NCBI RefSeq assembly: GCF_900172335.1 | Contig: NZ_FWFX01000012.1 | Span: 1 to 64,000, forward strand | Source of the DNA: Roseovarius albus | Lineage (GTDB): Bacteria; Pseudomonadota; Alphaproteobacteria; Rhodobacterales; Rhodobacteraceae | Length of the DNA stretch: 64,000 nt | Reading direction: 5' to 3' | In this document: piece by piece, positions 9,752 to 64,000 of the stretch | How the letters are laid out: each line of letters opens with the position of its first letter | How positions within the stretch are numbered: position 1 is the first letter of the stretch | Notes under the pieces: generated by a model | Database searches by the model: none | What the model was told of the DNA's origin: nothing | Seen by the model: only the letters and a program-made list of their open reading frames with translations | Translations under genes and position numbers: made by a program

Positions 9752-10849
9752 ATGAACAACGACTTAACAGTGCTTGGATTGGAAAGCAGTTGTGATGATA
9801 CTGCCGCTGCAGTCGTGCGTGTTTCCGATGGGCAGCCCCCCCAAATCTTGTCATCTGTCGTGTTCGGGCAAAATGATTTGCACGCCGACTTTGGCGGTGT
9901 GGTGCCGGAAATCGCAGCGCGCGCGCATGCTGAAAAGCTTGATTACTGCGTTAGGGACGCATTGCAAGCATCAGGTACCGCATTGAGCGACATCGACCTG
10001 ATCGCTGTCACCGCAGGACCCGGCCTGATTGGTGGAGTTCTCTCTGGTGTGATGTGCGCCAAGGGGATTGCAGCGGGTGCAGATCTGCCTTTGATCGGTG
10101 TGAACCACCTTGCTGGGCACGCCCTAACCCCTCGTTTGACAGACCAGCTGACGTACCCCTACCTGATGCTGCTGGTCTCAGGTGGGCATTGTCAGTTTCT
10201 CATCGTCCATAGCCCCACGGGGTTTACACGCGTTGGAGGCACCATTGATGACGCCCCGGGCGAGGCTTTTGATAAAACCGCACGGCTTCTTGGCTTGTCG
10301 CAACCCGGTGGCCCAAGTGTGGAGGTGCGCGCCAAGCTGGGGGATCCAAAGCGGTTCCGCTTCCCACGGCCCTTGCTGGATCGCGATGACTGCGACCTGT
10401 CCTTCTCGGGCTTGAAAACCGCACTTCTGCGTACCCGCGATACGATCATTACAGAGCAAGGCGGGCTTAGGCAGCAAGATGTAAATGACTTGTGCGCCGG
10501 GTTTCAAGCCGCGGTGACCGACACCTTGGCAGCCAAAACGCGCCGCGCCCTTAGGAAATATCTACAGAAGGCTCCCCAATCCCCTGCGATTGCGGTGGCG
10601 GGAGGCGTTGCGGCCAATCAGGCGATCCGATCTGCTCTCGAAACAGCCGCCGCCGAGCATGACACGGCTTTCGTCGCGCCTCCTCTGGCGCTTTGTACCG
10701 ACAACGCGGCCATGATCGCCTATGCCGGGGCAGAGGTGTTCAGCGCCGGAGAACGCAGCGACATGACACTTGCCGCGCGTCCCCGTTGGCCCTTGGATCA
10801 AACCAGCCCCTCAATGTTGGGCAGCGGCAAAAAAGGGGCCAAAGCATGA
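9752..10849 (+). CDS. tsaD: tRNA N6-adenosine threonylcarbamoyltransferase
   Basis: 365 residues from the ATG at 9752, where the invariant N-terminal [10 protein letters not shown] begins. TsaD transfers threonylcarbamoyl from TC-AMP to A37 of ANN-decoding tRNAs, with TsaB and TsaE. The metal-binding HLAGHA motif, LVSGGHCQ and the C-terminal [10 protein letters not shown] and CTDNAAMIA motifs are all present. It overlaps gpsA by four bases (ATGA), starting the tsaD-gpsA-yciI-EVE operon divergent from hemD. Confidence 0.97.
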
Positions 10850-11805
10850 TTTGTGTGATGGGGGCTGGGGCATTCGGGACTGCGCTGGCGATTTCTCTGG
10901 CCCACAATGGCGAGGTTTCCCTCTGGGCGCGGGACGCTAGACATGCGCAAGAAATGGATCAGCATCGCGAAAACCGCAAACGCCTGCCCGGGATTATGCT
11001 GCCGGATCGAATTAGTATCCATTCTGATCCGAGTTCACTGCCTGAGGACAGCACGATTTTGCTCTCGATCCCAACACAAAAACTACGGGCTGCCTTAACG
11101 GAACACGCTAAGACACTTTCAAGAGCTACGCTTGTGGCCTGCTGCAAAGGCATCGAACTTTCCACGGGTAAGGGCCCCGTGCAAATCATCAACGAAATCC
11201 TTCCAAACGCGAAAACCGCGATTCTGACGGGCCCATCCTTCGCCGATGACATCGCCCGTGACTTGCCAACGGCGCTAACCTTGGCCTGCGAAGACGAGGC
11301 TGTAGGCAAAACGCTTCAAAACAACCTGACGACCCCGAACCTCAGACTTTACCGAACCACGGATGTGACCGGCGCTGAACTGGGTGGTGCACTGAAAAAC
11401 GTTATAGCAATTGGCTGTGGCACCGTCATAGGAGCGGGGCTGGGCGAAAGCGCACGCGCGGCACTGATGACCCGTGGCTTTGCCGAGATGAGCCGTATGG
11501 CCGTTTCTCTCGGTGCGAACGTAGAAACATTGGCTGGTCTGTCTGGCTTTGGCGATCTGGTATTGACCTGCGGCTCCGATCAGTCGCGCAATTTTCGCTA
11601 TGGCCGCAGCATCGGACGCGATGAGACGTTCGACAGCGCTGTCACAGTCGAAGGTGCTGCCACGGCAAAAGCGGTGCGTGATATTGCCCACGAAAAGTCA
11701 CTCGAAATGCCGATCACAGAAGTGATCGCCGCTTTGATCGATCAGGAATTGCGCGTTGATCAGGCCATGGATATGTTACTCTCAAGACCACTGAAGGAAG
11801 AATAA
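10846..11805 (+). CDS. gpsA: NAD(P)-dependent glycerol-3-phosphate dehydrogenase
   Basis: 319 residues. Start at 10846 is fixed by the Rossmann motif directly after it ([18 protein letters not shown], GxGxxG). GpsA reduces dihydroxyacetone phosphate to sn-glycerol-3-phosphate for phospholipid synthesis. Other family blocks: [25 protein letters not shown] with the catalytic Lys, and [11 protein letters not shown]. The tsaD-gpsA order is usual in alphaproteobacteria. Coupled to both neighbours by overlapping start and stop codons. Confidence 0.97.
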
Positions 11806-12074
11806 TGCTAATTGCTCTGATGGCCCAAGACAAACCAGGTGCCCTGCAAACCCGTCTCGATAACCGTGATAAGCATGTTGCCTATCTCAAGGAAACCGGT
11901 GTCGTTAGTCAGGCAGGTCCGTTGCTGGACAACAACGAACAAATGATCGGCTCGCTGGTCATTCTGGATGTTGACGATATGGCCGCAGCCCAAGCCTGGG
12001 CCGCCAATGACCCCTATGCCAAGGCGGACCTGTTTGCCGAGGTCAAACTGGTCCCTTGGAAAAAGGTGATCTGA
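11805..12074 (+). CDS. YciI family protein
   Basis: 89 residues, a complete ferredoxin-like YciI domain. It has the conserved His/Asp pattern (RDKHVAYL; later ANDPYAKADLF with the NDPY/AxADLF motif). YciI proteins are small putative hydrolase or dehydrochlorinase-like enzymes of largely unknown role. The ATG shares one base with the gpsA stop (TAATG), so translation is coupled. The gpsA-yciI-EVE order recurs in Rhodobacterales, to my knowledge. Confidence 0.88.
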   Translation: MLIALMAQDKPGALQTRLDNRDKHVAYLKETGVVSQAGPLLDNNEQMIGSLVILDVDDMAAAQAWAANDPYAKADLFAEVKLVPWKKVI

Positions 12075-12076
12075 TC

Positions 12077-12496
12077 ATGCGCTACTGGCTGTTCAAATCC
12101 GAACCCTCAACCTGGAGCTGGGATGATCAGGTCGCCAAGGGCGATGAGGGCGAAGAGTGGGACGGCGTACGCAATTATCAGGCACGCAACTTCATGCGCG
12201 AAATGAAGGTTGGCGATCGCGGATTTTTCTACCACAGCCAAAAGGAAAAGGCTGTGGTGGGCATCGTCGAAGTAATCAACGAGGCCCACTCTGACAGCAC
12301 CACGGATGATGAACGCTGGGAATGCGTCGACATCAAAGCCGTTGGCCCGTTACAAACACCGATTACGCTGGCAATGATCAAGGCCGACCCAAGGCTGGCC
12401 GAGATGGCGCTGGTGCGCACATCGCGGCTATCCGTACAACCAGTCACGGCTGATGAATGGGCCATTGTCTGTGATATGGCTGGTTCCGCGCCTTAG
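12077..12496 (+). CDS. EVE domain-containing protein
   Basis: 139 residues from the ATG at 12077, three bases after the yciI stop. The N-terminus RYWLFKSEPSTWSWDD and the WDGVRNYQARNFM and GDRGFFYHS blocks define a stand-alone EVE domain, a PUA-like fold. EVE domains bind modified bases in DNA or RNA. The aromatic cage residues around SEPSTWSW and YHS are present. Last gene of the tsaD operon, converging with the ABC exporter gene. Confidence 0.93.
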   Translation: MRYWLFKSEPSTWSWDDQVAKGDEGEEWDGVRNYQARNFMREMKVGDRGFFYHSQKEKAVVGIVEVINEAHSDSTTDDERWECVDIKAVGPLQTPITLAMIKADPRLAEMALVRTSRLSVQPVTADEWAIVCDMAGSAP

Positions 12497-12501
12497 ACGC
12501 C

Positions 12502-14292
12502 TCAGCCTTTCTTGCCGTTGTACCCGCTACGCTGCGCATTATAGAGCTGCGCATAGAGGCCATTTACCTCCAACAACTCGTCATGTGTGCCCTGTTCGAA
12601 CAGCCCACCCGATTCCATGACATAGATCTGATCGGCATCCGCGATTGACGAAAGCCTGTGTGCAACAACGATTGTGGTGCGCCCATTGGTCAACCGGGTT
12701 AGCGCGGTTTTGATCCGTGCCTCGGTGGCCTGGTCAAGCGCGCTTGTCGCCTCATCAAGCAGCAGAATCGGCGCGTCACTTAAAAATGCCCTGGCAATCG
12801 CAATCCGTTGCTTTTGCCCACCCGACAACTGTGCGCCCTTTGGGCCAACCGCAGTATCGCCTCGTTTACGCATCAGATCAGCAATCTCGGCATTTTCGGC
12901 AGCTTGCCAGATCTGCTCATCCGTTGCTTCCCGGTTCACGTATTTGATGTTTTCCCAGATAGATTTGTTGAAAATCACGATATCTTGGGCAACGACGGAA
13001 AACGCAGAACGGAGGGACTTAATTTTTAGCTCGTCGACTTTTCCCCCACCGACTGTAATTTCACCACCCTTCACATCGTACAACCTCGTCAGTAACGACA
13101 GAACTGTTGTTTTGCCTGACCCAGTCGCTCCAACAATGGCGGATACCTTTCCACCCTCGAAATTCATGTTTAGTCCGTTGAACAATGGCTGTTCTGGATC
13201 GTACGAAAACACGACATCCTTCAAAGTAATGTCACCACTGGTATCGAACTCGGTACCTGCATTAGGTGCGTCTTTGATGGAACTGTCCTCAGAGTACAAG
13301 CTGCGCACACGGTCCAATGTCACCAGATTGGACTGCATGGAGCTGAAATACTGCCCCAACAATCGCGCAGGATCGAATACCATAACCAAACCCAGCAGGA
13401 ACGTGATTATGCCTGCGCTATCCACGTCATAATTAGGGCTCAGCACCATATAGCCGCCGCCGCCGATAACCATCACATAGACGACCGCCGAACTCAGGTC
13501 GATGGATGGCGAGACGAGTGCCTGAATGCGTTGCATGTGAACACTTAGGCCGCGCAATCTATTGCTTCCTTCGGTGAGACGATCGATCTCTTTATCTTCT
13601 TGGGCCGAAATCTTCACCGTCCGCATTGAGCTGATCGTTTCTTCGATATTGCTCATGTTTTCAATTGCGGCGAGTTCCACCTCGTTTTGCGCTTTTCTGA
13701 CCCGAGCAGAAACATGGTTCATGATCCACATAATGAACGGCAAAACAACCAAAGCAGATGAGAACAAAATCCAATTTTTATAAATGAGATAGCCGGAAAC
13801 AATGAGCACTGTGACTAAGTCACGAACGGCATTTGCGGTACTTATGCCAACGAAAAAGCCTAGTTTTTGCGACTGACCGCCAAGTTTATGAATGATTTCC
13901 CCTGATTTGGTCCGCTCAAAATAAGCTAGATCAAGAATCATCAGGTGCTTGATCAAGTCTGAGCGCATTCTGAACACGACATCGCTACTCATCCTGACGG
14001 CTACCAGCGGCACCAAGTAAGACATCGCGCCACGTACGACGAACAGGAAGAACACGAAAAAGCTGATCATGATCAAATCACGGACGGTTCCGGATTCGAA
14101 AATCACCCGAAGGCCGCTTTCCGTTTTGGCCAGAAATTGCTGATAAACAAGCCCCTGAACGATGATCATCAACAAAACCAAAAGCATCATACCGACTTTG
14201 TGCTTTAGGTATCCATGCCAAAACCAGTGAAGGTTATCTTTGTCTTTCGCTGAAAAGAACGGTTCTCTTTTTTTATTTGACGTCTTTGCCAT
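12502..14292 (-). CDS. ABC transporter, fused permease and ATPase (MsbA-like exporter)
   Basis: 596 residues: an N-terminal six-helix ABC exporter membrane domain (about 20-320) and a C-terminal ATPase. The ATPase shows Walker A GATGSGKTT, signature LSGGQKQRIAIARA, Walker B ILLLDEATSALD and the switch VAHRLSS. Half-transporters of this type work as homodimers, exporting lipids, glycans or peptides. It stands alone, so no partner points to a substrate. Confidence 0.92.
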   Translation of the reverse strand: MAKTSNKKREPFFSAKDKDNLHWFWHGYLKHKVGMMLLVLLMIIVQGLVYQQFLAKTESGLRVIFESGTVRDLIMISFFVFFLFVVRGAMSYLVPLVAVRMSSDVVFRMRSDLIKHLMILDLAYFERTKSGEIIHKLGGQSQKLGFFVGISTANAVRDLVTVLIVSGYLIYKNWILFSSALVVLPFIMWIMNHVSARVRKAQNEVELAAIENMSNIEETISSMRTVKISAQEDKEIDRLTEGSNRLRGLSVHMQRIQALVSPSIDLSSAVVYVMVIGGGGYMVLSPNYDVDSAGIITFLLGLVMVFDPARLLGQYFSSMQSNLVTLDRVRSLYSEDSSIKDAPNAGTEFDTSGDITLKDVVFSYDPEQPLFNGLNMNFEGGKVSAIVGATGSGKTTVLSLLTRLYDVKGGEITVGGGKVDELKIKSLRSAFSVVAQDIVIFNKSIWENIKYVNREATDEQIWQAAENAEIADLMRKRGDTAVGPKGAQLSGGQKQRIAIARAFLSDAPILLLDEATSALDQATEARIKTALTRLTNGRTTIVVAHRLSSIADADQIYVMESGGLFEQGTHDELLEVNGLYAQLYNAQRSGYNGKKG

Positions 14293-54640: not shown

Positions 54641-55984
54641 ATGAACACGCATTACCGTGATACGCGCAAGATTGACCCGACCCGTGGGGACACCATCGGG
54701 GACAATACGCCAAATGATAAAAACCGGGTCGAGATTGGCCCAACGCAATTGGCGTTTTCAGAGTGGGAAGCGGCAGGGTTGGTGCCGCCGGATCTGCAGA
54801 AAATGCGCCGCCATCGTTGGGAGCGGCTAACCCAGTTCATCAATGATCGCGATTATGCGGGCCTGCTGGTGTTTGATCCGCTCAACATTCGCTATGCCAC
54901 CGACAGCACCAACATGCAGCTGTGGAATACGCATAATCCGTTTCGAGCGCTGCTGATCTGCGCGGATGGTTACATGGTGATGTGGGATTACAAAAACTCA
55001 CCCTTTCTCAGCGAATTCAATCCGCTGGTGCGTGAGCAAAGATCAGGCGCAGATCTGTTCTATTTCGACCGTGGTGACAAGGTGGATGTGGCGGCGGATG
55101 TGTTCTCGAACGAGGTGCGCGTACTGCTGGAGGAACACAGCTCCGGCAACAAACGTTTGGCCGTCGACAAGATCATGTTGCACGGGTTGCGTGCGCTCGA
55201 AGCCCAAGGGTTTCAGATCATGGAAGGCGAAGAGCTGACCGAGAAATGCCGCGCGGTGAAAGGCCCGGATGAGATCTTGGCTATGCGTTGTGCCAGCCAT
55301 GCTTGCGAAACCGCGGTCGCCGAGATGGAAAAATTCGCAAGAGAGAAAATTCCCGGGGGGGGCGTTTCAGAAGATGACATCTGGGCGGTGCTGCACGCTG
55401 AAAACATCCGCCGCGGCGGCGAATGGATCGAAACTCGGCTTCTTGCCTCGGGCCCACGCACCAACCCGTGGTTTCAGGAATGCGGCCCGCGCATCGTTCA
55501 AAACAATGAAATCGTGAGTTTTGATACTGATCTGATCGGAAGCTACGGCATCTGTGTTGATATCAGCCGCAGCTGGTGGATTGGCGATGAAAAGCCGCCC
55601 GCCGATATGATCTATGCCATGCAACACGGGCATGAACACATCATGCAGAACATGGAGATGCTGAAGCCCGGTGTGATGATCCCGGAGTTGAGCGCTAATA
55701 CCCATGTCCTGGATGACCAGTATCAGAAACAGAAATACGGCTGCCTGATGCACGGTGTGGGCCTGTGTGATGAATGGCCACTGGTGGCCTATCCGGATCA
55801 CGCAGTCGAGGGTGCCTATGATTACCCGCTTGAACCGGGGATGGTTCTGTGTGTCGAGACTTTGGTCAGCCCTGAGGGCGGCGACTTCTCTATCAAGCTG
55901 GAGGATCAGGTGCTGATCACCGAAGACGGTTATGAAAACCTGACCAAATATCCGTTTGATCCGGCGTTGATGGGTGAAGCCTAA
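54641..55984 (+). CDS. dddP: DMSP lyase DddP
   Basis: 447 residues, exactly the length of characterised DddP. It is an M24-metallopeptidase-fold enzyme that cleaves dimethylsulfoniopropionate to dimethyl sulfide and acrylate. All known iron ligands are at the published positions: Asp295, Asp297 (SFDTDLIG), Asp307 (CVDISRSWW), His371 (MHGVGLCDEW), Glu406 and Glu421 (KLEDQ); the catalytic Asp377 is in CDEWP. The N-terminal domain (about 1-200) shares the family pattern RYATDSTNMQLWNTHNPFRA. Stands alone, without acrylate-use genes beside it. Confidence 0.97.
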   Translation: MNTHYRDTRKIDPTRGDTIGDNTPNDKNRVEIGPTQLAFSEWEAAGLVPPDLQKMRRHRWERLTQFINDRDYAGLLVFDPLNIRYATDSTNMQLWNTHNPFRALLICADGYMVMWDYKNSPFLSEFNPLVREQRSGADLFYFDRGDKVDVAADVFSNEVRVLLEEHSSGNKRLAVDKIMLHGLRALEAQGFQIMEGEELTEKCRAVKGPDEILAMRCASHACETAVAEMEKFAREKIPGGGVSEDDIWAVLHAENIRRGGEWIETRLLASGPRTNPWFQECGPRIVQNNEIVSFDTDLIGSYGICVDISRSWWIGDEKPPADMIYAMQHGHEHIMQNMEMLKPGVMIPELSANTHVLDDQYQKQKYGCLMHGVGLCDEWPLVAYPDHAVEGAYDYPLEPGMVLCVETLVSPEGGDFSIKLEDQVLITEDGYENLTKYPFDPALMGEA

Positions 55985-56120: not shown

Positions 56121-57332
56121 ATGCCGACCGAACGCTTTACCTTTACTGGCCATGCAGGCCACGAACTGGCTGCGCGCCTTGATCTGCCCGAGGGGCCGCA
56201 TCTGGCCACGGCCCTGTTTGCCCATTGCTTTACCTGTTCCAAAGATATCCCCGCCGCGCGCCGGATTTCGGCCCGTTTGGCTGGGGCCGGCATTGCAGTT
56301 TTGCGGTTTGATTTTACCGGCTTGGGCCATTCCAAGGGCGAGTTTGAAAACACGTCCTTCGCAACCAACGTGAACGATCTGGTTCTGGCTGCTGAAGCGT
56401 TGAAGGAACGTGGCATGGCCCCAGGCATGTTGGTCGGGCATTCTTTGGGCGGTGCCGCCGTCTTGGGCACAGCGCGCAAGATCGACAGCGTCAAAGCCGT
56501 GGTCACCATCGGTGCGCCGTATGATCCCGGTCACGTGACCCACAACTTTGGTGATGCATTGGATCAAATTGCAGCTGACGGTGTGGCCGAGGTTATGCTG
56601 GGGGGCCGCGCCATCCGCATTGGCCAAGGCTTCGTTGAGAATGTGAACGCCGAGAACCTAGCAGACGACATTGCCAACCTGAATCGCGCGCTGCTGGTAC
56701 TACATGCCCCACTGGATTCAACGGTCGGCATCGATAATGCCGCCGAGATTTTCAAGGCGGCCAAGCACCCCAAAAGCTTTGTCACTCTGGACAATGCCGA
56801 TCACCTGGTCACCGATGCGGCAGACGCTGAATATGCAGCTGAGGTTATTGCCGCCTGGGGTGCGCGTTATCTTGATCTACGGGCCCCGGCCCCGCCCCCG
56901 GGCGCGCCAGAGGGGATTGTTCGCGTGTCTGAGGCCGACACCCACGGCTTTTTGCAAGACGTGAACTCTGGCCCCAAGCACCACACGCTGGCGGATGAGC
57001 CGGTGGCCTATGGCGGCTCAGATCAGGGCATGACACCTTATGGGTTCCTGTCTGGGGGCCTCGGTGCGTGCACCTCGATGACCATTCGCATGTATGCGCG
57101 CCGCAAGGGATGGCCATTGGAACATATCAGTGTCGATGTGAACCACAACAAGGTCCACGCTCAGGATGCAGATTCCCGCAACGAGACACAAGCAGACAAG
57201 TTCACCCGAGTGATTCACCTCAAAGGGGCATTGACCGAAGACCAGCGCGCCAAACTTTTGGAGATCGCTGACAAGTGCCCGGTACACCGCACACTTGAAC
57301 GTAGTTCGCTGGTTGAAACGAAGTTGGCTTAG
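56121..57332 (+). CDS. Bifunctional alpha/beta hydrolase - OsmC family protein
   Basis: 403 residues in two domains. The N-terminal alpha/beta hydrolase (about 1-255) has the nucleophile elbow [10 protein letters not shown], and [10 protein letters not shown] near its end gives the His. The C-terminal OsmC domain (about 265-402) has the peroxidatic Cys in [15 protein letters not shown] and the second Cys in [10 protein letters not shown]. The fusion recurs in bacteria; the OsmC part reduces organic hydroperoxides. Which substrate links the two is unknown. Confidence 0.93.
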
Positions 57333-58054: not shown

Positions 58055-58999
58055 TCAAGCAAGCTCCCCGGCTCTTTGGGCAAACCAATCCACCAAGCGG
58101 GCCACTGCTGATGTCCTGTCTGAGACAGGGCGGTGTTGCAGATAATAAGATGTTTCACGATTTGACGCGCTTGGCCCGACCCGCAAAATCTCGTTGCGGT
58201 GCAGCAAATCATCGACCAGACCGCGCCATCCCAAAGCAACGCCCTCACCGCTCCGCACCGCACGGATCAAAAAAGGATAGGCGTCATAAGGGGTGGTTGG
58301 GCCGAAGTCCGGTATCGGCAGCCCTAGGTGTGTAAAGTAGCTGCGCCAAGTCAAGAACCCGGAGTTCCCAACTGCAAAGTGCAAAAAATCATCTGCTACA
58401 AGGTTCGAAAAGTCGATTTTGCCTTCTGGCTCGCCTCGCTCTCTTTGCTTTTGATGATATCGCGCCAGAAAGCTAGGACTGCAAACTGGAAATGTTTCAT
58501 CCTTGATCAGCGGAAAATATGGCCTGTCCGACAATTGCGAAACATCCCAGACGACGGCGGCATCGATACGCCTGAAATCAAGATATTCAAGCTGATCGGA
58601 CGTAATCAGCCGCACGGGAACGCCGCCCATCGCACGCCGCAAATCTGAAAACCGCGGCATCAGCCATTGATCCGAAAATCCATAGCTGCAGGCCAATACA
58701 ACACCGTGGTCCTCTCCCTGCGCCATAACCTCTTGCCAGACCGACGCCACGTGCCCGATGCCCAGCGCAACCGCATCTGCCAGTTTCTGCCCGGCTTCGG
58801 TTGGGGTGATCTTGTTGTGATCGCGGTGGAACAAGGCGCAACCCAACCGCCCTTCAAGCGTGGCAATGTGGCGTGAAACGGCGGGCTGGCTCAGGTTCAG
58901 TTCCTTTGCCGCCAGCGAAAATCCACGATGCCGCACTGCCGCTTCCATGACGAGCAGAGCGTTCAGCGAACCAGTCAAGAGGCGAGATTGCATTTCCAT
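58055..58999 (-). CDS. LysR family transcriptional regulator
   Basis: 314 residues from the ATG at 58999 (MEMQSRLLTG); the frame is open to 59080 but that extra stretch would reach the divergent gene's promoter. Winged helix with RHRGFSLAAKELNLSQPAVS, effector domain about 95-310 of the GcvA-like type (DQLEYLDFRRIDAAV). Divergent from the two-domain CoA transferase, so it probably regulates it. Confidence 0.9.
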   Translation of the reverse strand: MEMQSRLLTGSLNALLVMEAAVRHRGFSLAAKELNLSQPAVSRHIATLEGRLGCALFHRDHNKITPTEAGQKLADAVALGIGHVASVWQEVMAQGEDHGVVLACSYGFSDQWLMPRFSDLRRAMGGVPVRLITSDQLEYLDFRRIDAAVVWDVSQLSDRPYFPLIKDETFPVCSPSFLARYHQKQRERGEPEGKIDFSNLVADDFLHFAVGNSGFLTWRSYFTHLGLPIPDFGPTTPYDAYPFLIRAVRSGEGVALGWRGLVDDLLHRNEILRVGPSASNRETSYYLQHRPVSDRTSAVARLVDWFAQRAGELA

Positions 59000-59102
59000 A
59001 ACAAAATGTAATCCAATGCATAGAAATATGTCCAGTTTATCAGTTATTTTTTGACGGTTAATCTGATCACTGAATGACAATGCCTCATCCCCTTACGAAA
59101 GC

Positions 59103-61571
59103 ATGACAATGAATCGTCCTCTCTCTCACATTCGCGTTTTGGATTTTGGTCAATATCTGGCTGCCCCTCTGGTTGGCATGATGCTGGCCGATATGGGGGC
59201 CGAAGTTATTCGCATTGATCCCCCAAATGGCCCGGCCTTTGATGATCCGGCGTTTGACATGCTGTCACGTGGGAAAAAGGCGGTGACACTGGATCTGAAA
59301 TCGGATGAGGGCCGCGCCACTGCGCTAGAACTGGCCAAGCGATCCGACGTGGTACTGGAGAACTTCCGCCCCGGAGTGATGGACCGCTTGGGATTAGGCC
59401 CGGACACCCTGCGCGGCATCAATAGTCAGCTTGTCTATCTTTCCATGCCCGGCTTCGCTTCAACCGATGAAGAACTGGCCAACCTGCCAGCTTGGGAGGC
59501 CGTGATCGCCGCCTACACAGGCCAATTCACTGACATGGGACTGAACCGCCGTCTGATGGGCATCAACCCGTCGTTCACGCCGCTGACCCTCGCCTCGGCC
59601 TATGGTTCCAGTTTCGGGGCAATGGCGGTGTTGTTCGCGCTGAATGCACGCGAGATAAACGGCGGCGACCATATCGAGGTGCCGCTGGCCACAGCCCTAC
59701 TGGAAGGGTTGATCTACAACTGCGAACAGATCGAAGACTATCCCGAACGCTATAAATCCCCACGAGAGGTAGAGCTGGACCGCCGCACTGCCGAGGGACT
59801 GCCGATGAACCTGAAATTCGAGGAACTCTCTGAATTCCTTGATCCTTTCTATCGCACCTATACCTGTGAAGACGGGCGTGGGTTCTATGTGGTCAGCGGA
59901 TCAGTCGCGACGCACCCGCGCCGGGTTCTGGAAACCTTGGGACTCAAGGATCTGGCCGATGAACTGCCTGATTTCTCTGCCTATCTGAACACCGCCGATT
60001 GGCCTGCGGAATGGTCGATGCGCAACTACCCCGTCGGCGCATCTGACCGTGCACTCGTGTCGTCGGCAATGAAAGCCGCGTTTCTGACCAAACCGGCCCA
60101 CGAATGGGAGGAGCTTTTTGGCGCGGCCAAAGCGCCTGCCACCGCGCAACGCTTTACCAAGGAATGGCTGGCAGACCCGCACGCTTTGACCTCCGGACTG
60201 GTGCTTGAGGTAGAAACCCATTGCCATGGCACCATGCGTCAAATGGGCAACGTCGCCTGGTTATCGGGGGATGATGCCGCAGCTCAAAAAGCGGATGTCA
60301 GTTCTGCGGACCTTGCGGCTCTCCTTTCTGAATCCGAACGGCACTCTGGCCCCACACAAAATGATACAGGTTGGCTCGATGGCCTCAATGTACTAGATCT
60401 GACCAATGTGATCGCTGGCCCAACCATCGGCTCAACACTGGCCCGTTATGGTGCCAGTGTAACACTGGTGCAACCGGTCGAACCTTCGGTAGATCCGTGG
60501 AACACCGTTGTTTTTGGCATCCATGCCCAACGCGGCAAGGAAAGCATTCTGCTTAATCTGCGCACGGATCAAGGCCAAGAGGTTCTACGCAAATTAATCG
60601 ACAAGGCCGACGTCATCACTATGAACGGCACCGATGAGCAGCGCGATAAACTTGGGTTATCGCCAGCAAGCCTTGAGGAAATAAATCCACGTCTCATTTT
60701 GGTGCAACTCGACGCCTTTGGCGGGCCAATGCGCGGGCCGAAATCCGATCATCTGGGCTATGATGACCTGGCACAAGCGGCCACCGGCGTAATGACACGC
60801 TTTGGCGGCAGCATGGAAACCCCCGAGGAGCACGCCCACTTTGGTACTATTGACGTGCTGACTGGATTCTGCGCCTGCGTGGCCCTAGGGAGCGCTTTGC
60901 TGCGTCTGCGGGAAACCGGAAAGGGTGGGATTGCGCGGGCGTCACTAGCCGGGGCGGGCAACCTCATTCAAGCGCAGTTTATGTATGATTACGCCACACG
61001 CGCCCCGTTTGATGAGTCGTCTGGGCGAGAGGTTCTGGGCTGGGGGCCGTTCTATCATTGCTATGAAGCCGCTGATCAATGGATGTTCTTCGCCGCCCCA
61101 ATAGAACGCGGAAGTGCACTTGCCCGTTGCCCGGATACCGCTGATCTGGCGGAGCTTCCCGAGGATGAGTTGCACAAAGCCCTAGTGGAACGGTTCAAGA
61201 CCCAGCCTTTGGCCCATTGGCGGACGGCCTTTGGCGATGGCTCCAGTACAGTTGTGCCGCTCGCCTCGCTTCACCAAACGCGCGACGCCTCGTTGCAGCT
61301 TGAAAGCAACGGCAGTATCGATCTCACCCAATCTACCTTCCGTGTCATCCGGCATGATCAGCACCCAATGGGCCGCTGGTGTGATTTAGTTGCCCCCAAC
61401 GCTGTGCGTCCTCAATCAGCCCGGATCACCATCCCGGGACCGATGCCAAAGTATGGGCAACACACACGTGATATTTTGGCGCGCTTCGGCTATTCTGCAG
61501 CGCAAATCGACGGGATGATCGCAAGCGGCGCAGCAGGTGAATGCTGGTCGGAGAAATACCTGCCAGAGTGA
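59103..61571 (+). CDS. Tandem two-domain CaiB/BaiF (class III) CoA transferase
   Basis: 822 residues, two class III CoA transferase domains (about 5-400 and 425-820). Domain 2 keeps the catalytic Asp in LGYDDLAQAATG (near residue 554); in domain 1 the matching position is Glu (PAWEAVIAAYTG, near 132), so only the second site looks canonical. It moves CoA between carboxylic acids. DMSP CoA-transferase/lyase DddD has the same double architecture, but I could not match this sequence to it. It converges with a monooxygenase-hydrolase operon, suggesting CoA activation of a ring-opening product. Confidence 0.88.
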   Translation: MTMNRPLSHIRVLDFGQYLAAPLVGMMLADMGAEVIRIDPPNGPAFDDPAFDMLSRGKKAVTLDLKSDEGRATALELAKRSDVVLENFRPGVMDRLGLGPDTLRGINSQLVYLSMPGFASTDEELANLPAWEAVIAAYTGQFTDMGLNRRLMGINPSFTPLTLASAYGSSFGAMAVLFALNAREINGGDHIEVPLATALLEGLIYNCEQIEDYPERYKSPREVELDRRTAEGLPMNLKFEELSEFLDPFYRTYTCEDGRGFYVVSGSVATHPRRVLETLGLKDLADELPDFSAYLNTADWPAEWSMRNYPVGASDRALVSSAMKAAFLTKPAHEWEELFGAAKAPATAQRFTKEWLADPHALTSGLVLEVETHCHGTMRQMGNVAWLSGDDAAAQKADVSSADLAALLSESERHSGPTQNDTGWLDGLNVLDLTNVIAGPTIGSTLARYGASVTLVQPVEPSVDPWNTVVFGIHAQRGKESILLNLRTDQGQEVLRKLIDKADVITMNGTDEQRDKLGLSPASLEEINPRLILVQLDAFGGPMRGPKSDHLGYDDLAQAATGVMTRFGGSMETPEEHAHFGTIDVLTGFCACVALGSALLRLRETGKGGIARASLAGAGNLIQAQFMYDYATRAPFDESSGREVLGWGPFYHCYEAADQWMFFAAPIERGSALARCPDTADLAELPEDELHKALVERFKTQPLAHWRTAFGDGSSTVVPLASLHQTRDASLQLESNGSIDLTQSTFRVIRHDQHPMGRWCDLVAPNAVRPQSARITIPGPMPKYGQHTRDILARFGYSAAQIDGMIASGAAGECWSEKYLPE

Positions 61572-61577
61572 TCGCAC

Positions 61578-62354
61578 TCAGGCCAAATCACTGATGAATT
61601 GATGGATGTGCCGGGCGACTTGATCGCCGGCCTCCAGCAACAAAGAATGCTTGTATCCATCCATGATCACCAGTTCGGCATCCGGCAAAGCTGCCCCAAT
61701 CTGACGGTTCAAGCGAGGATTGCATCCGCCATCATTTTCACCAGTTAAAACCAAGGATGGTGCCATGACTTCGTGTAACCAAGGGGCCATTTCGGTGCCC
61801 GCGTAGATTCGGAAGACGTTCATGAAAATATCCGGGTCGGTGCCGATCACCTGTTGCAGGCGGCGCTCGACCACATCGCCATGGTTGGCGATGAAGTCGT
61901 CAGTGAACCAACGGTCGGTCAGGGTGGGTAAGATTTGCGGAATGCCCCTTTCTTCCATTGCTTTGACTACGCCCCAGACTTTGGCGCTGTCATCCTCGGT
62001 ACGGAAAGCTGCGGTGGACAGCAGGCCCAGCGACAACACGCGATCAGGATAGCGCAGCGCATAGGCCGGGCCGATCATACCGCCCAGCGAATGCCCGGCA
62101 AAATGCGCCTGTTCAATCCCGGTGCGTTCGCGCACGCGCTCCAGATCGTTGACCAGTTCATCAAGGCCAAACTCATCATCCGGCAAAGGCGATTCCCCGT
62201 GCCCGCGCAGATCATAAGTGATGACAGTGTAATGCGGTGTCAGCTCTGGCAAGGCTTTGGCCCAAGTGTTGCGCGCAGCGCCAATCCCGTGGATCAAGAA
62301 CAGCGGCGGGCCATCGCCCTGAACCGTGTATTCGCAGTCAATCACGTCGCTCAT
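61578..62354 (-). CDS. Alpha/beta fold hydrolase
   Basis: 258 residues, like enol-lactonases and esterases (PcaD-type). Oxyanion HGIGAARNTW, nucleophile AGHSLGGMIG near residue 101, acid in GENDGGCN and His in GYKHSLLLE. Last gene of the operon after the tautomerase. Candidate for opening a lactone or ester made by the upstream monooxygenase (Baeyer-Villiger-like chemistry), by inference. Confidence 0.92.
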   Translation of the reverse strand: MSDVIDCEYTVQGDGPPLFLIHGIGAARNTWAKALPELTPHYTVITYDLRGHGESPLPDDEFGLDELVNDLERVRERTGIEQAHFAGHSLGGMIGPAYALRYPDRVLSLGLLSTAAFRTEDDSAKVWGVVKAMEERGIPQILPTLTDRWFTDDFIANHGDVVERRLQQVIGTDPDIFMNVFRIYAGTEMAPWLHEVMAPSLVLTGENDGGCNPRLNRQIGAALPDAELVIMDGYKHSLLLEAGDQVARHIHQFISDLA

Positions 62355-62363
62355 GCGGCCCCC

Positions 62364-62558
62364 TCAATCAGGAAACTTGTCTGAACACAGCTGGCCACCC
62401 GAGCCCCAGTCCTCTTTATCCACATCGGTGATCACCACATGCACGCTTTCCGGTGTACCACCAGCGGCACTGACGAAGGCATCGGTCAGTTCTTTGACCA
62501 AGGCGCGCTTTTGATCAACGCTGCGGCCTTTGAACATTTCCACCCGGATGATTGGCAT
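62364..62558 (-). CDS. 4-Oxalocrotonate tautomerase family protein
   Basis: 64 residues, the size of one 4-OT subunit. After the initiator Met is removed, the catalytic Pro1 is exposed (MPIIRVEMFKGRSVDQKRAL), and VHVVITDVDKEDWG gives the conserved end. Such enzymes isomerise unsaturated keto acids in ring-degradation pathways. Nine bases upstream of the hydrolase gene. Confidence 0.93.
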   Translation of the reverse strand: MPIIRVEMFKGRSVDQKRALVKELTDAFVSAAGGTPESVHVVITDVDKEDWGSGGQLCSDKFPD

Positions 62559-62568
62559 GTGGGTCTCC

Positions 62569-63060
62569 TTACTCGGTCTCGTGGGGGCGAACGATATGAA
62601 ACGCGCCGCTCATGTAGGTCAGGGGTTTTTCTCCGGCGTTCGAAATGCCGGTGACATTACCAATGCAGATTGCGTGGCTGCCGTGGATGTGGCGGTGGTT
62701 CAGCGAACAGGTGAAGGCGGTCGCGCGCGGCAGCATCGGACCAAACTCGGTTTCGATGATCTCGACCCCCTCGAAACGGTTCGGGTTCGAGGCATCCAAC
62801 GCCCCGGCAAAGCGCGTCGCCAGACTTGCGGCATCTTCGGGCAGGATATTCACGCAGAACGCTCCGTTCTCAGACACGGTCTGCGCGATCCGGCTGTCGG
62901 CCTTGAGACAGACCAGAACCGACGGCGGGTCCGCTGAGAGCGAAGAAAAGGCACTGACTGTGGCCCCCATCTTGCCCGAAGGGCCATCTGTGGTGACAAC
63001 AGTAACAGTGGATGCCACATGGCGCATGGCGGTAATAAACGCGTCACGGGCAGCATTCAT
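62569..63060 (-). CDS. Flavin reductase family protein
   Basis: 163 residues from the ATG at 63060, overlapping the monooxygenase gene by four bases. MRHVASTVTVVTTDGPSG and ATVSAFSSLSADPPSVLVCL bind flavin, with HIHGSHAICIGNVTG later. Supplies reduced flavin to a two-component monooxygenase, here surely the LLM protein encoded just upstream. Confidence 0.94.
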   Translation of the reverse strand: MNAARDAFITAMRHVASTVTVVTTDGPSGKMGATVSAFSSLSADPPSVLVCLKADSRIAQTVSENGAFCVNILPEDAASLATRFAGALDASNPNRFEGVEIIETEFGPMLPRATAFTCSLNHRHIHGSHAICIGNVTGISNAGEKPLTYMSGAFHIVRPHETE

Positions 63061-64000
63061 TGGGCGGCAATCCCGGCGGTGCGGCCTGTAAAGTGCGGCA
63101 TGACCTCTTCGGCGAAGCACTGGATCGAGTCCATTGTCTGGCTCAGCTCGAGCCCGAAATTCATGTTCAGGATGACACGATCGATCCCCAGCTCGGCATA
63201 TGGCCCAAGCTTGTCGATCATTTCCTGTGGTGTGCAGATCAAAAGGCTTTCCCCCAGTTCTTCGACCGTCTGGTCGCGTGGCAGTTCTCTGATCATACCA
63301 TTGTCAACAATTCCGGGGCCGGTAAAGACATTATCGAAGCGGCTGTAATAACTGTAGGCGGCTTCAATCTTGCGCTGGCGTTCCGCCGCACTGTGGGCGA
63401 CATGAGCGACCCGGCTGAGCGAGAGGGTCAGATGCGCACCCGCCTCGCCCATTTCGTCCTTGGCTCGGGTGAAGCCGCCGACCTGATCCATCAGCAATTG
63501 GTGGTTGCCGGACAGGGGCGTGGTCTGGATGTGAAAACCACGCTTGGTGCAATGGTAAATCCCTTCAGGATTCATCACCGCCATCATCATCGATATGGGG
63601 CGCACCGGGCGGGGCATGACGGTGAGGGGGTCAAATTTGTAATATTTGCCATCCCAGCTCACCTCTTCCTCGGTCAGCAAGGCCTGCAGCACGTTCAACG
63701 ATTCATCAAACCGTTCACGGGTCTCGGCCATGGGCACATCAAGGCGTTCCATCTCATAGGCAAAGGCCCCGCGCCCGACACCCAGCATCAGGCGGCCTTC
63801 GGTAAAGATATCGGCAACAATCAATTCGCCCGCATAGATCCGCATGTCGTGCAGCGGCAGCACCACGACCGAAGTCATGATTTTCACCCGTTCGGTCATC
63901 GAGGCGATTTTGGTGGCAAAGGTCAGCGGTGCGGGCATCATCAGCACATTAATCAGGTGGTGTTCGGTCAGGGAGACGGCATCATAGCTCAACCGGTCGG
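63057..64000 (-). CDS. LLM class flavin-dependent monooxygenase, C-terminal part
   Basis: The open frame runs through the right edge, so the N-terminus is missing. Luciferase-like fold: SLTEHHLINVLMMPAPLTFA near the visible start, VVVLPLHDMRIYAGELIVAD, GRLMLGVGRGAF, RERFDESLNVLQ and VMPRPVRPISM. Works with the coupled flavin reductase to oxygenate an unknown organic substrate. First visible gene of the catabolic operon; more genes may lie beyond the window. Confidence 0.92.
   Translation of the reverse strand, partial: DRLSYDAVSLTEHHLINVLMMPAPLTFATKIASMTERVKIMTSVVVLPLHDMRIYAGELIVADIFTEGRLMLGVGRGAFAYEMERLDVPMAETRERFDESLNVLQALLTEEEVSWDGKYYKFDPLTVMPRPVRPISMMMAVMNPEGIYHCTKRGFHIQTTPLSGNHQLLMDQVGGFTRAKDEMGEAGAHLTLSLSRVAHVAHSAAERQRKIEAAYSYYSRFDNVFTGPGIVDNGMIRELPRDQTVEELGESLLICTPQEMIDKLGPYAELGIDRVILNMNFGLELSQTMDSIQCFAEEVMPHFTGRTAGIAAQ

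Follow-up and report, generated by a model that had tools for sequence, protein, structure and literature searches.

A luciferase-like monooxygenase operon and a two-domain CoA-transferase-like gene meet tail to tail in Roseovarius albus

The locus and its proteins

The locus examined here occupies positions 58055 to 64000 of a 64,000-nucleotide stretch of Roseovarius albus DNA, called the window below, which covers positions 1 to 64000 of a contig of 141,960 bases. Four genes on the minus strand encode, in reading order, a luciferase-like (LLM) monooxygenase, a flavin reductase, a tautomerase, and an alpha/beta hydrolase; together with a divergent LysR-type regulator gene (LysR2), they make up what we call unit 1. 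Facing them is the gene for a coenzyme A (CoA)-transferase-like protein, which with its own divergent LysR gene (LysR1) forms unit 2 (Table 1). The CoA transferase and hydrolase genes converge, with 6 bases between their two stops, and because they lie on opposite strands, they cannot share one mRNA. An earlier reading made from the sequence alone (the sequence-only reading) had taken these genes as one catabolic locus. The gene list it gave was right, in that LLM, flavin reductase, tautomerase, hydrolase, and tandem CoA transferase are all open reading frames (ORFs) of the stated families. The single locus did not hold up, given the stop-to-stop arrangement on opposite strands and the finding that homologues of the CoA transferase and of unit 1 do not co-occur. 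It is very probable that the two are separate, independently inherited units that meet tail to tail.

Table 1. Genes and gene remnants at the locus and around it, in contig coordinates
Feature	Position (strand)	Unit	Remarks
DMSP lyase DddP	54641-55984 (+)		NF043017, 909.8 bits against a cut-off of 600
Alpha/beta hydrolase fused to OsmC domain	56121-57332 (+)		
LysR regulator (LysR1)	58055..59080 (-)	2	Longest ORF; divergent from CoA transferase
Two-CaiB-domain class III CoA-transferase-like protein, 822 aa	59103..61571 (+)	2	
Alpha/beta hydrolase, 258 aa	61578..62354 (-)	1	Enol-lactonase models nearest
4-Oxalocrotonate tautomerase-type tautomerase, 64 aa	62364..62558 (-)	1	AAGGAG precedes ATG
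HpaC/RutF-type flavin reductase, 163 aa	62569..63060 (-)	1	4-base overlap with LLM stop
LLM class monooxygenase, 345 aa	63057..64094 (-)	1	First 94 bases lie outside the window
Second LysR (LysR2)	64197-65015	1	Just past the window; divergent from LLM
LysR2-like remnant, 32 residues	65767-65862 (+)		Behind the VWA-like gene

The monooxygenase falls within the LLM superfamily (PF00296, 144 bits against a cut-off of 27.9), and its predicted model matches luciferase-type TIM barrels in Foldseek and VIA-align, with RslO1, luciferases, and a type II Baeyer-Villiger enzyme among the closest folds. It matched 27 named NCBIfam LLM subfamilies, and all 25 shown lie under their cut-offs (the best, TIGR03619, at 100.4 against 166.9 bits). 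The flavin reductase matches PF01613 (E 4.7e-33). The hydrolase matches PF00561 (E 3.3e-33) and keeps the triad Ser89, Asp208, and His236 in 67/67 aligned rows; its best NCBIfam models are those for 3-oxoadipate enol-lactonase, with TIGR02427 scoring 148.5 bits, under the cut-off of 255.85. For the LLM, hydrolase, and reductase, no NCBIfam model is over its cut-off among the matches listed. Our literature searches found no paper on unit 1. The description of the genes as undescribed can thus be kept, as far as searched.

The tautomerase scores over the cut-offs of PF01361 (65.0 against 22 bits), NF001966 (82.6 against 80), and NF002571 (63.3 against 55). In 4-oxalocrotonate tautomerase proper, Pro1, Arg11, and Arg39 have roles. 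Here, in an alignment of 35 rows (mature numbering), Pro1 is kept in 34, Arg11 and Trp50 in all 35, and Arg39 in none, which sets the protein apart from 4-oxalocrotonate tautomerase proper although both NF cut-offs are passed.

In unit 2, the CoA transferase matches PF02515 (CoA_transf_3) in two stretches of one 822-residue ORF (E 1.7e-127). In the second half, 20/20 covering rows have Asp584, and the corresponding place in the first half holds Ser in 21/21. This aspartate was tentatively equated with the catalytic one by hand alignment to the family motif, and a HMMER alignment to 1x74 is about two residues off there. The pattern suggests that the protein likely has a single active site, located in its second half. 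LysR1 matches PF00126 and PF03466, and our guess is that it starts at Met28 (position 58999) in place of the start of the longest ORF.

The sequence-only reading also expected the cluster to run on past the window. This is so for LysR2 and for the beginning of the LLM gene. Further right, inspection by eye gave a VWA-like gene, followed by one for a membrane protein and, later on, by hemE/hemC-like genes; to the eye, these ORFs do not resemble further pathway genes. The remnant behind the VWA-like gene has 72% identity to the C terminus of LysR2, and it suggests an old duplication or insertion beside unit 1.

Separate distribution of the two units

The co-inheritance that the sequence-only reading had proposed as a check was looked for at the family, species, and genus levels. 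We surveyed 295 genomes of the family with a threshold of E 1e-100 for the CoA transferase, which was found in 20 of them: 10 hold orthologues (68 to 100% identity, R. albus included), and 10 hold paralogues alone (42 to 50%). The LLM was found in 10 of the 295, in nine at 52% identity or more (R. albus again included) and in one at 30%. R. albus is the only genome on both the CoA-transferase-orthologue and the LLM lists. None of the nine other orthologue loci (14 to 20 kb each) contains the LLM, reductase, tautomerase, or hydrolase, and the 11 CoA-transferase paralogue loci gave one weak LLM match (27%, at L042). For the converse comparison, a scan with one genome per species yielded 100 LLM relatives, of which the best 80 were used, each extended by up to 8 kb in both directions (loci of 3.2 to 17 kb). 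No orthologous CoA transferase lies in any of these 80 loci, and three hold CaiB matches of 23 to 36%. With 0/9 and 0/80 loci, the CoA transferase and its adjoining LysR are not co-inherited with unit 1, an outcome that the sequence-only reading itself had named as refuting its proposal.

Within the genus, the LLM occurs in 14 of 60 genomes and the orthologous CoA transferase in 2 (R. albus and G338, the closest relative found), with a 42 to 43% paralogue in two more. The junction was compared in 11 of the 13 other LLM-bearing genomes, namely, G338 and 10 more. G338 alone shares the arrangement of the two units, adjacent and convergent as in R. albus, with 94% identity for the LLM and 88% for the CoA transferase. 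This shared junction speaks for the one pathway of the sequence-only reading, in which the CoA transferase would activate the product of unit 1 and cooperation would have brought the units together. However, gene order in G338 agrees with that of the window to either side of the junction, between 44 and 74 kb (about 30 kb collinear, some ORFs unmatched); because both sides are collinear, the shared adjacency is background and carries little weight. The absence of any association across the nine CoA-transferase and 80 LLM loci, the other recurrent partners of CoA-transferase relatives, and the separate divergent LysR of each unit also speak against a joint pathway, which we regard as very improbable.

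The other 10 genus loci point to where the two units were joined. In five of them (L167-L171), the two genes that come after unit 1 in the window (296 and 151 aa) follow it here too, and four of these loci also keep the next three right-hand genes; neither the CoA transferase nor LysR1 nor the genes past them were found in the compared stretches of these five loci. The right-hand side is thus kept without the CoA-transferase side, which places a break between the CoA transferase and hydrolase genes. The other five loci share neither side, single matches aside. Judged from this gene order, unit 1 has probably been at the site for longer, and unit 2 would be a different system, placed beside it in a common ancestor of R. 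albus and G338.

Relatives of unit 2 have partners of their own. A LysR1 homologue (53 to 54% identity) adjoins the CoA transferase in four of the nine orthologue loci (L025-L028). The remaining five (L029-L033) hold a helix-turn-helix regulator gene and an N,N-dimethylformamidase-beta-like gene that is 68 to 100% identical to the one of Dinoroseobacter shibae. A GMC oxidoreductase gene (73 to 79% identity to an Agrobacterium plasmid gene) is present in all 11 paralogue loci (L034-L044) and a related LysR in 10 of them; the L044 paralogue matches over one half only. The GMC oxidoreductase with the two-domain CoA transferase is a second recurrent unnamed arrangement, with which unit 2 can be grouped. 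It is also found on rhizobial and agrobacterial plasmids (L139:2177-7487).

The gene for DddP, which acts on dimethylsulfoniopropionate (DMSP), lies to the left of unit 2 (Table 1). A DMSP link by way of this neighbor was considered and rejected: in a search at E 1e-20, DddP was found in 0/20 CoA-transferase loci and in 1/80 LLM loci (32% identity, L062).

Unit 1 as an operon and its possible chemistry

Unit 1 has a recurrent composition of its own. Its genes were counted in the 80 LLM loci by tblastn; ORF calling had merged or missed some genes. The hydrolase is present in 63 loci, the tautomerase in 29 (in one, L134, distant from the LLM), and the flavin reductase in 13 (upstream of the LLM in L132 and L134). 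Where at least 3 kb of downstream sequence was available (61 loci), 49 had the hydrolase and 12 did not. Of the 74 loci with enough upstream sequence, 30 have a divergent LysR2 homologue no more than 500 bases from the LLM. For pairwise comparison, eight loci from the family survey were added to the 80, at least three genomes being counted twice in this set. In all 66 full-length pairs, the LLM and hydrolase genes share a strand and the LLM precedes the hydrolase. Distances between LLM proteins correlate with those between hydrolases (Spearman 0.70, against a maximum of 0.22 over 2,000 permutations), a pattern that fits co-inheritance but would fit shared ancestry as well. LLM identity within the unit 1 family is 52 to 100%. 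Hosts are mostly alpha- and gammaproteobacteria, with a few bins called Acidimicrobiales; many of them are marine or come from marine animals. Roseovarius nubinhibens ISM (L061) is one of the strains with unit 1. These results support a conserved operon with LLM and hydrolase as its core, often with the tautomerase and sometimes with the flavin reductase and divergent LysR.

Beyond unit 1's own genes, no family of neighbors occurs in more than 6 of 81 loci, and contexts vary from locus to locus. An attempt to read the substrate from neighboring genes was given up because the surroundings differ between LLM loci. Individual loci can still be described. In three gammaproteobacterial bins (L133:3277-14896, L098, and L111), the LLM gene is part of a long run on one strand, together with genes resembling those of polyamine and 2-aminoethylphosphonate catabolism (assigned mostly by eye; two L133 proteins were scanned). 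The L133 and L098 runs extend to the tautomerase and hydrolase, and L107 has genes similar in size to those of such runs. L104 encodes carnitine-dehydrogenase-like and 3-keto-acid-cleavage-like proteins, each under its cut-off; L144 encodes TcuA, over its cut-off; and L097 encodes a hydroxyproline-dehydratase-like enolase, under its cut-off. Behind the hydrolase, two Roseovarius loci have a PhyH-type gene (L056:10569-11423, scanned; L055, by eye), and the L055 operon additionally contains an Ldh_2 dehydrogenase gene (L055 positions 9965-11032 and 11881-12708 cover both additions).

Taken as a whole, the locus is probably best explained as two abutting independent units, with unit 1 a short operon of the two-component flavin monooxygenase kind. 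The sequence-only reading had proposed a route that oxygenates, opens, isomerises, and activates the substrate to a CoA ester. The first three activities persist as a conserved operon; the CoA-ester step falls away with a CoA transferase that is not co-inherited, and this gene should be left out of the set assigned to the unit 1 pathway. In the remaining route, the flavin reductase would supply reduced flavin mononucleotide (FMNH2) to the LLM, which would insert one oxygen beside a carbonyl of its substrate or open a small ring. The product, an enol ester, lactone, or amide, would then be cleaved by the enol-lactonase-like hydrolase, and the enol acid would be converted by the tautomerase to its keto form, which may enter central metabolism without CoA activation. 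The reaction order, chemistry, cofactor, and substrate class that we infer here draw on the fold neighbors of the predicted LLM model, the enol-lactonase models nearest the hydrolase, its conserved triad, and the conserved Pro1 and Arg11 of the tautomerase. We put the prospects of this CoA-free sequence at about even.

Luciferases among the closest folds to the LLM model would also suit a different reaction, in which a luciferase-like enzyme turns an open-chain aldehyde or ketone into an acid, or into an ester split by the hydrolase, in scavenging or detoxification. The variable gene contexts fit such a stand-alone unit. In that scheme, the tautomerase has no obvious role, and the divergent LysR (30/74 loci) suggests an inducible catabolic unit; we consider the open-chain reaction quite unlikely.

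On the preferred reading of two independent units, unit 1 would be a compact oxygenase-hydrolase unit with an adjacent LysR in many alpha- and gammaproteobacteria, and its substrate would probably be a widespread compound. It is possible, and we suggest it tentatively, that unit 1 is an undescribed, widely shared module in which oxygen insertion, hydrolysis, and ketonisation serve to open a ring in some common marine metabolite. If so, Roseovarius, SAR116, gammaproteobacteria, and animal-associated bacteria would share a catabolic route that is new.

Comparison with known systems

The LLM, RutF-like reductase, and RutD-like hydrolase families are common to unit 1 and the Rut pathway of pyrimidine breakdown. 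The sequence-only reading had kept the two apart, and rightly so: scores are far under the cut-offs for RutF (89.9 against 254.75 bits) and RutD (67.9 against 238.5), and RutA, RutB, and RutC are absent from the matches listed for the nine scanned proteins. The hydrolase is closest to the 3-oxoadipate enol-lactonase PcaD, both by its best NCBIfam models and by its best solved match by sequence (2xua), but the missed TIGR02427 cut-off keeps it outside PcaD, and no further pca-type protein was found among the scanned proteins beside it. The type II Baeyer-Villiger enzyme 3,6-diketocamphane monooxygenase (4uwm/5aec) resembles the LLM in fold, at 17 to 18% identity. According to PMC5395668, lactones made by type II Baeyer-Villiger monooxygenases open spontaneously or through an esterase, in keeping with the hydrolase step proposed for unit 1; marine SAR202, in the same account, has LLM-type enzymes and CaiB-type transferases in large numbers.

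A search of plasmids gave 385 records matching the LLM at E 1e-20. Among the 25 matches listed, that of Roseovarius pelagicus has 66% identity and the other 24 have 27.6 to 28.8%. An operon on an Acinetobacter venetianus plasmid (CP060162, L138) is of parallel design, which speaks for the reading of unit 1 given above: like unit 1, it holds an LLM, a flavin reductase, and a PcaD-like hydrolase together (28, 34, and 29% identity, respectively). It is unlike unit 1 in its aldehyde dehydrogenase, "amino acid synthesis," and permease genes, in the lack of an annotated tautomerase, and in the size of its reductase (313 against 163 aa), and the LLM identity is far under the range within the unit 1 family. 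All NCBIfam rows for the operon's LLM, reductase, and hydrolase are under their cut-offs. Its gene order may correspond to that of the trigonelline (tgn) genes.

Because this plasmid operon combines the three activities, unit 1 might open the ring of an N-heterocyclic betaine or other N-heteroaromatic compound in a trigonelline-like way, the LLM cleaving the ring and the hydrolase removing a formamide or an ester. Neighbors related to methylated amines are in line with this, namely, a gene of the MttB family at L142 and one for a choline dehydrogenase adjoining an LLM of 66% identity, but each is a single case. The trigonelline identity of the plasmid operon is putative, and no aldehyde dehydrogenase is among the unit 1 proteins scanned. 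Ring opening of trigonelline by TgnA/TgnB is described in PMC8269262, which also argues that homarine is an improbable substrate for these enzymes. On balance, we judge a trigonelline-like role unlikely and keep to the two-unit reading given above.

DddD, the DMSP CoA-transferase/lyase, is a protein of about 820 residues in which two CaiB domains are fused. Unit 2 would be like it in layout, with two CaiB domains and one conserved second-half Asp, and differs in that the partners of its orthologues, as far as annotated, are not ddd genes. Unit 1, set beside the systems above, is an unnamed member of the two-component luciferase-like monooxygenase operons.
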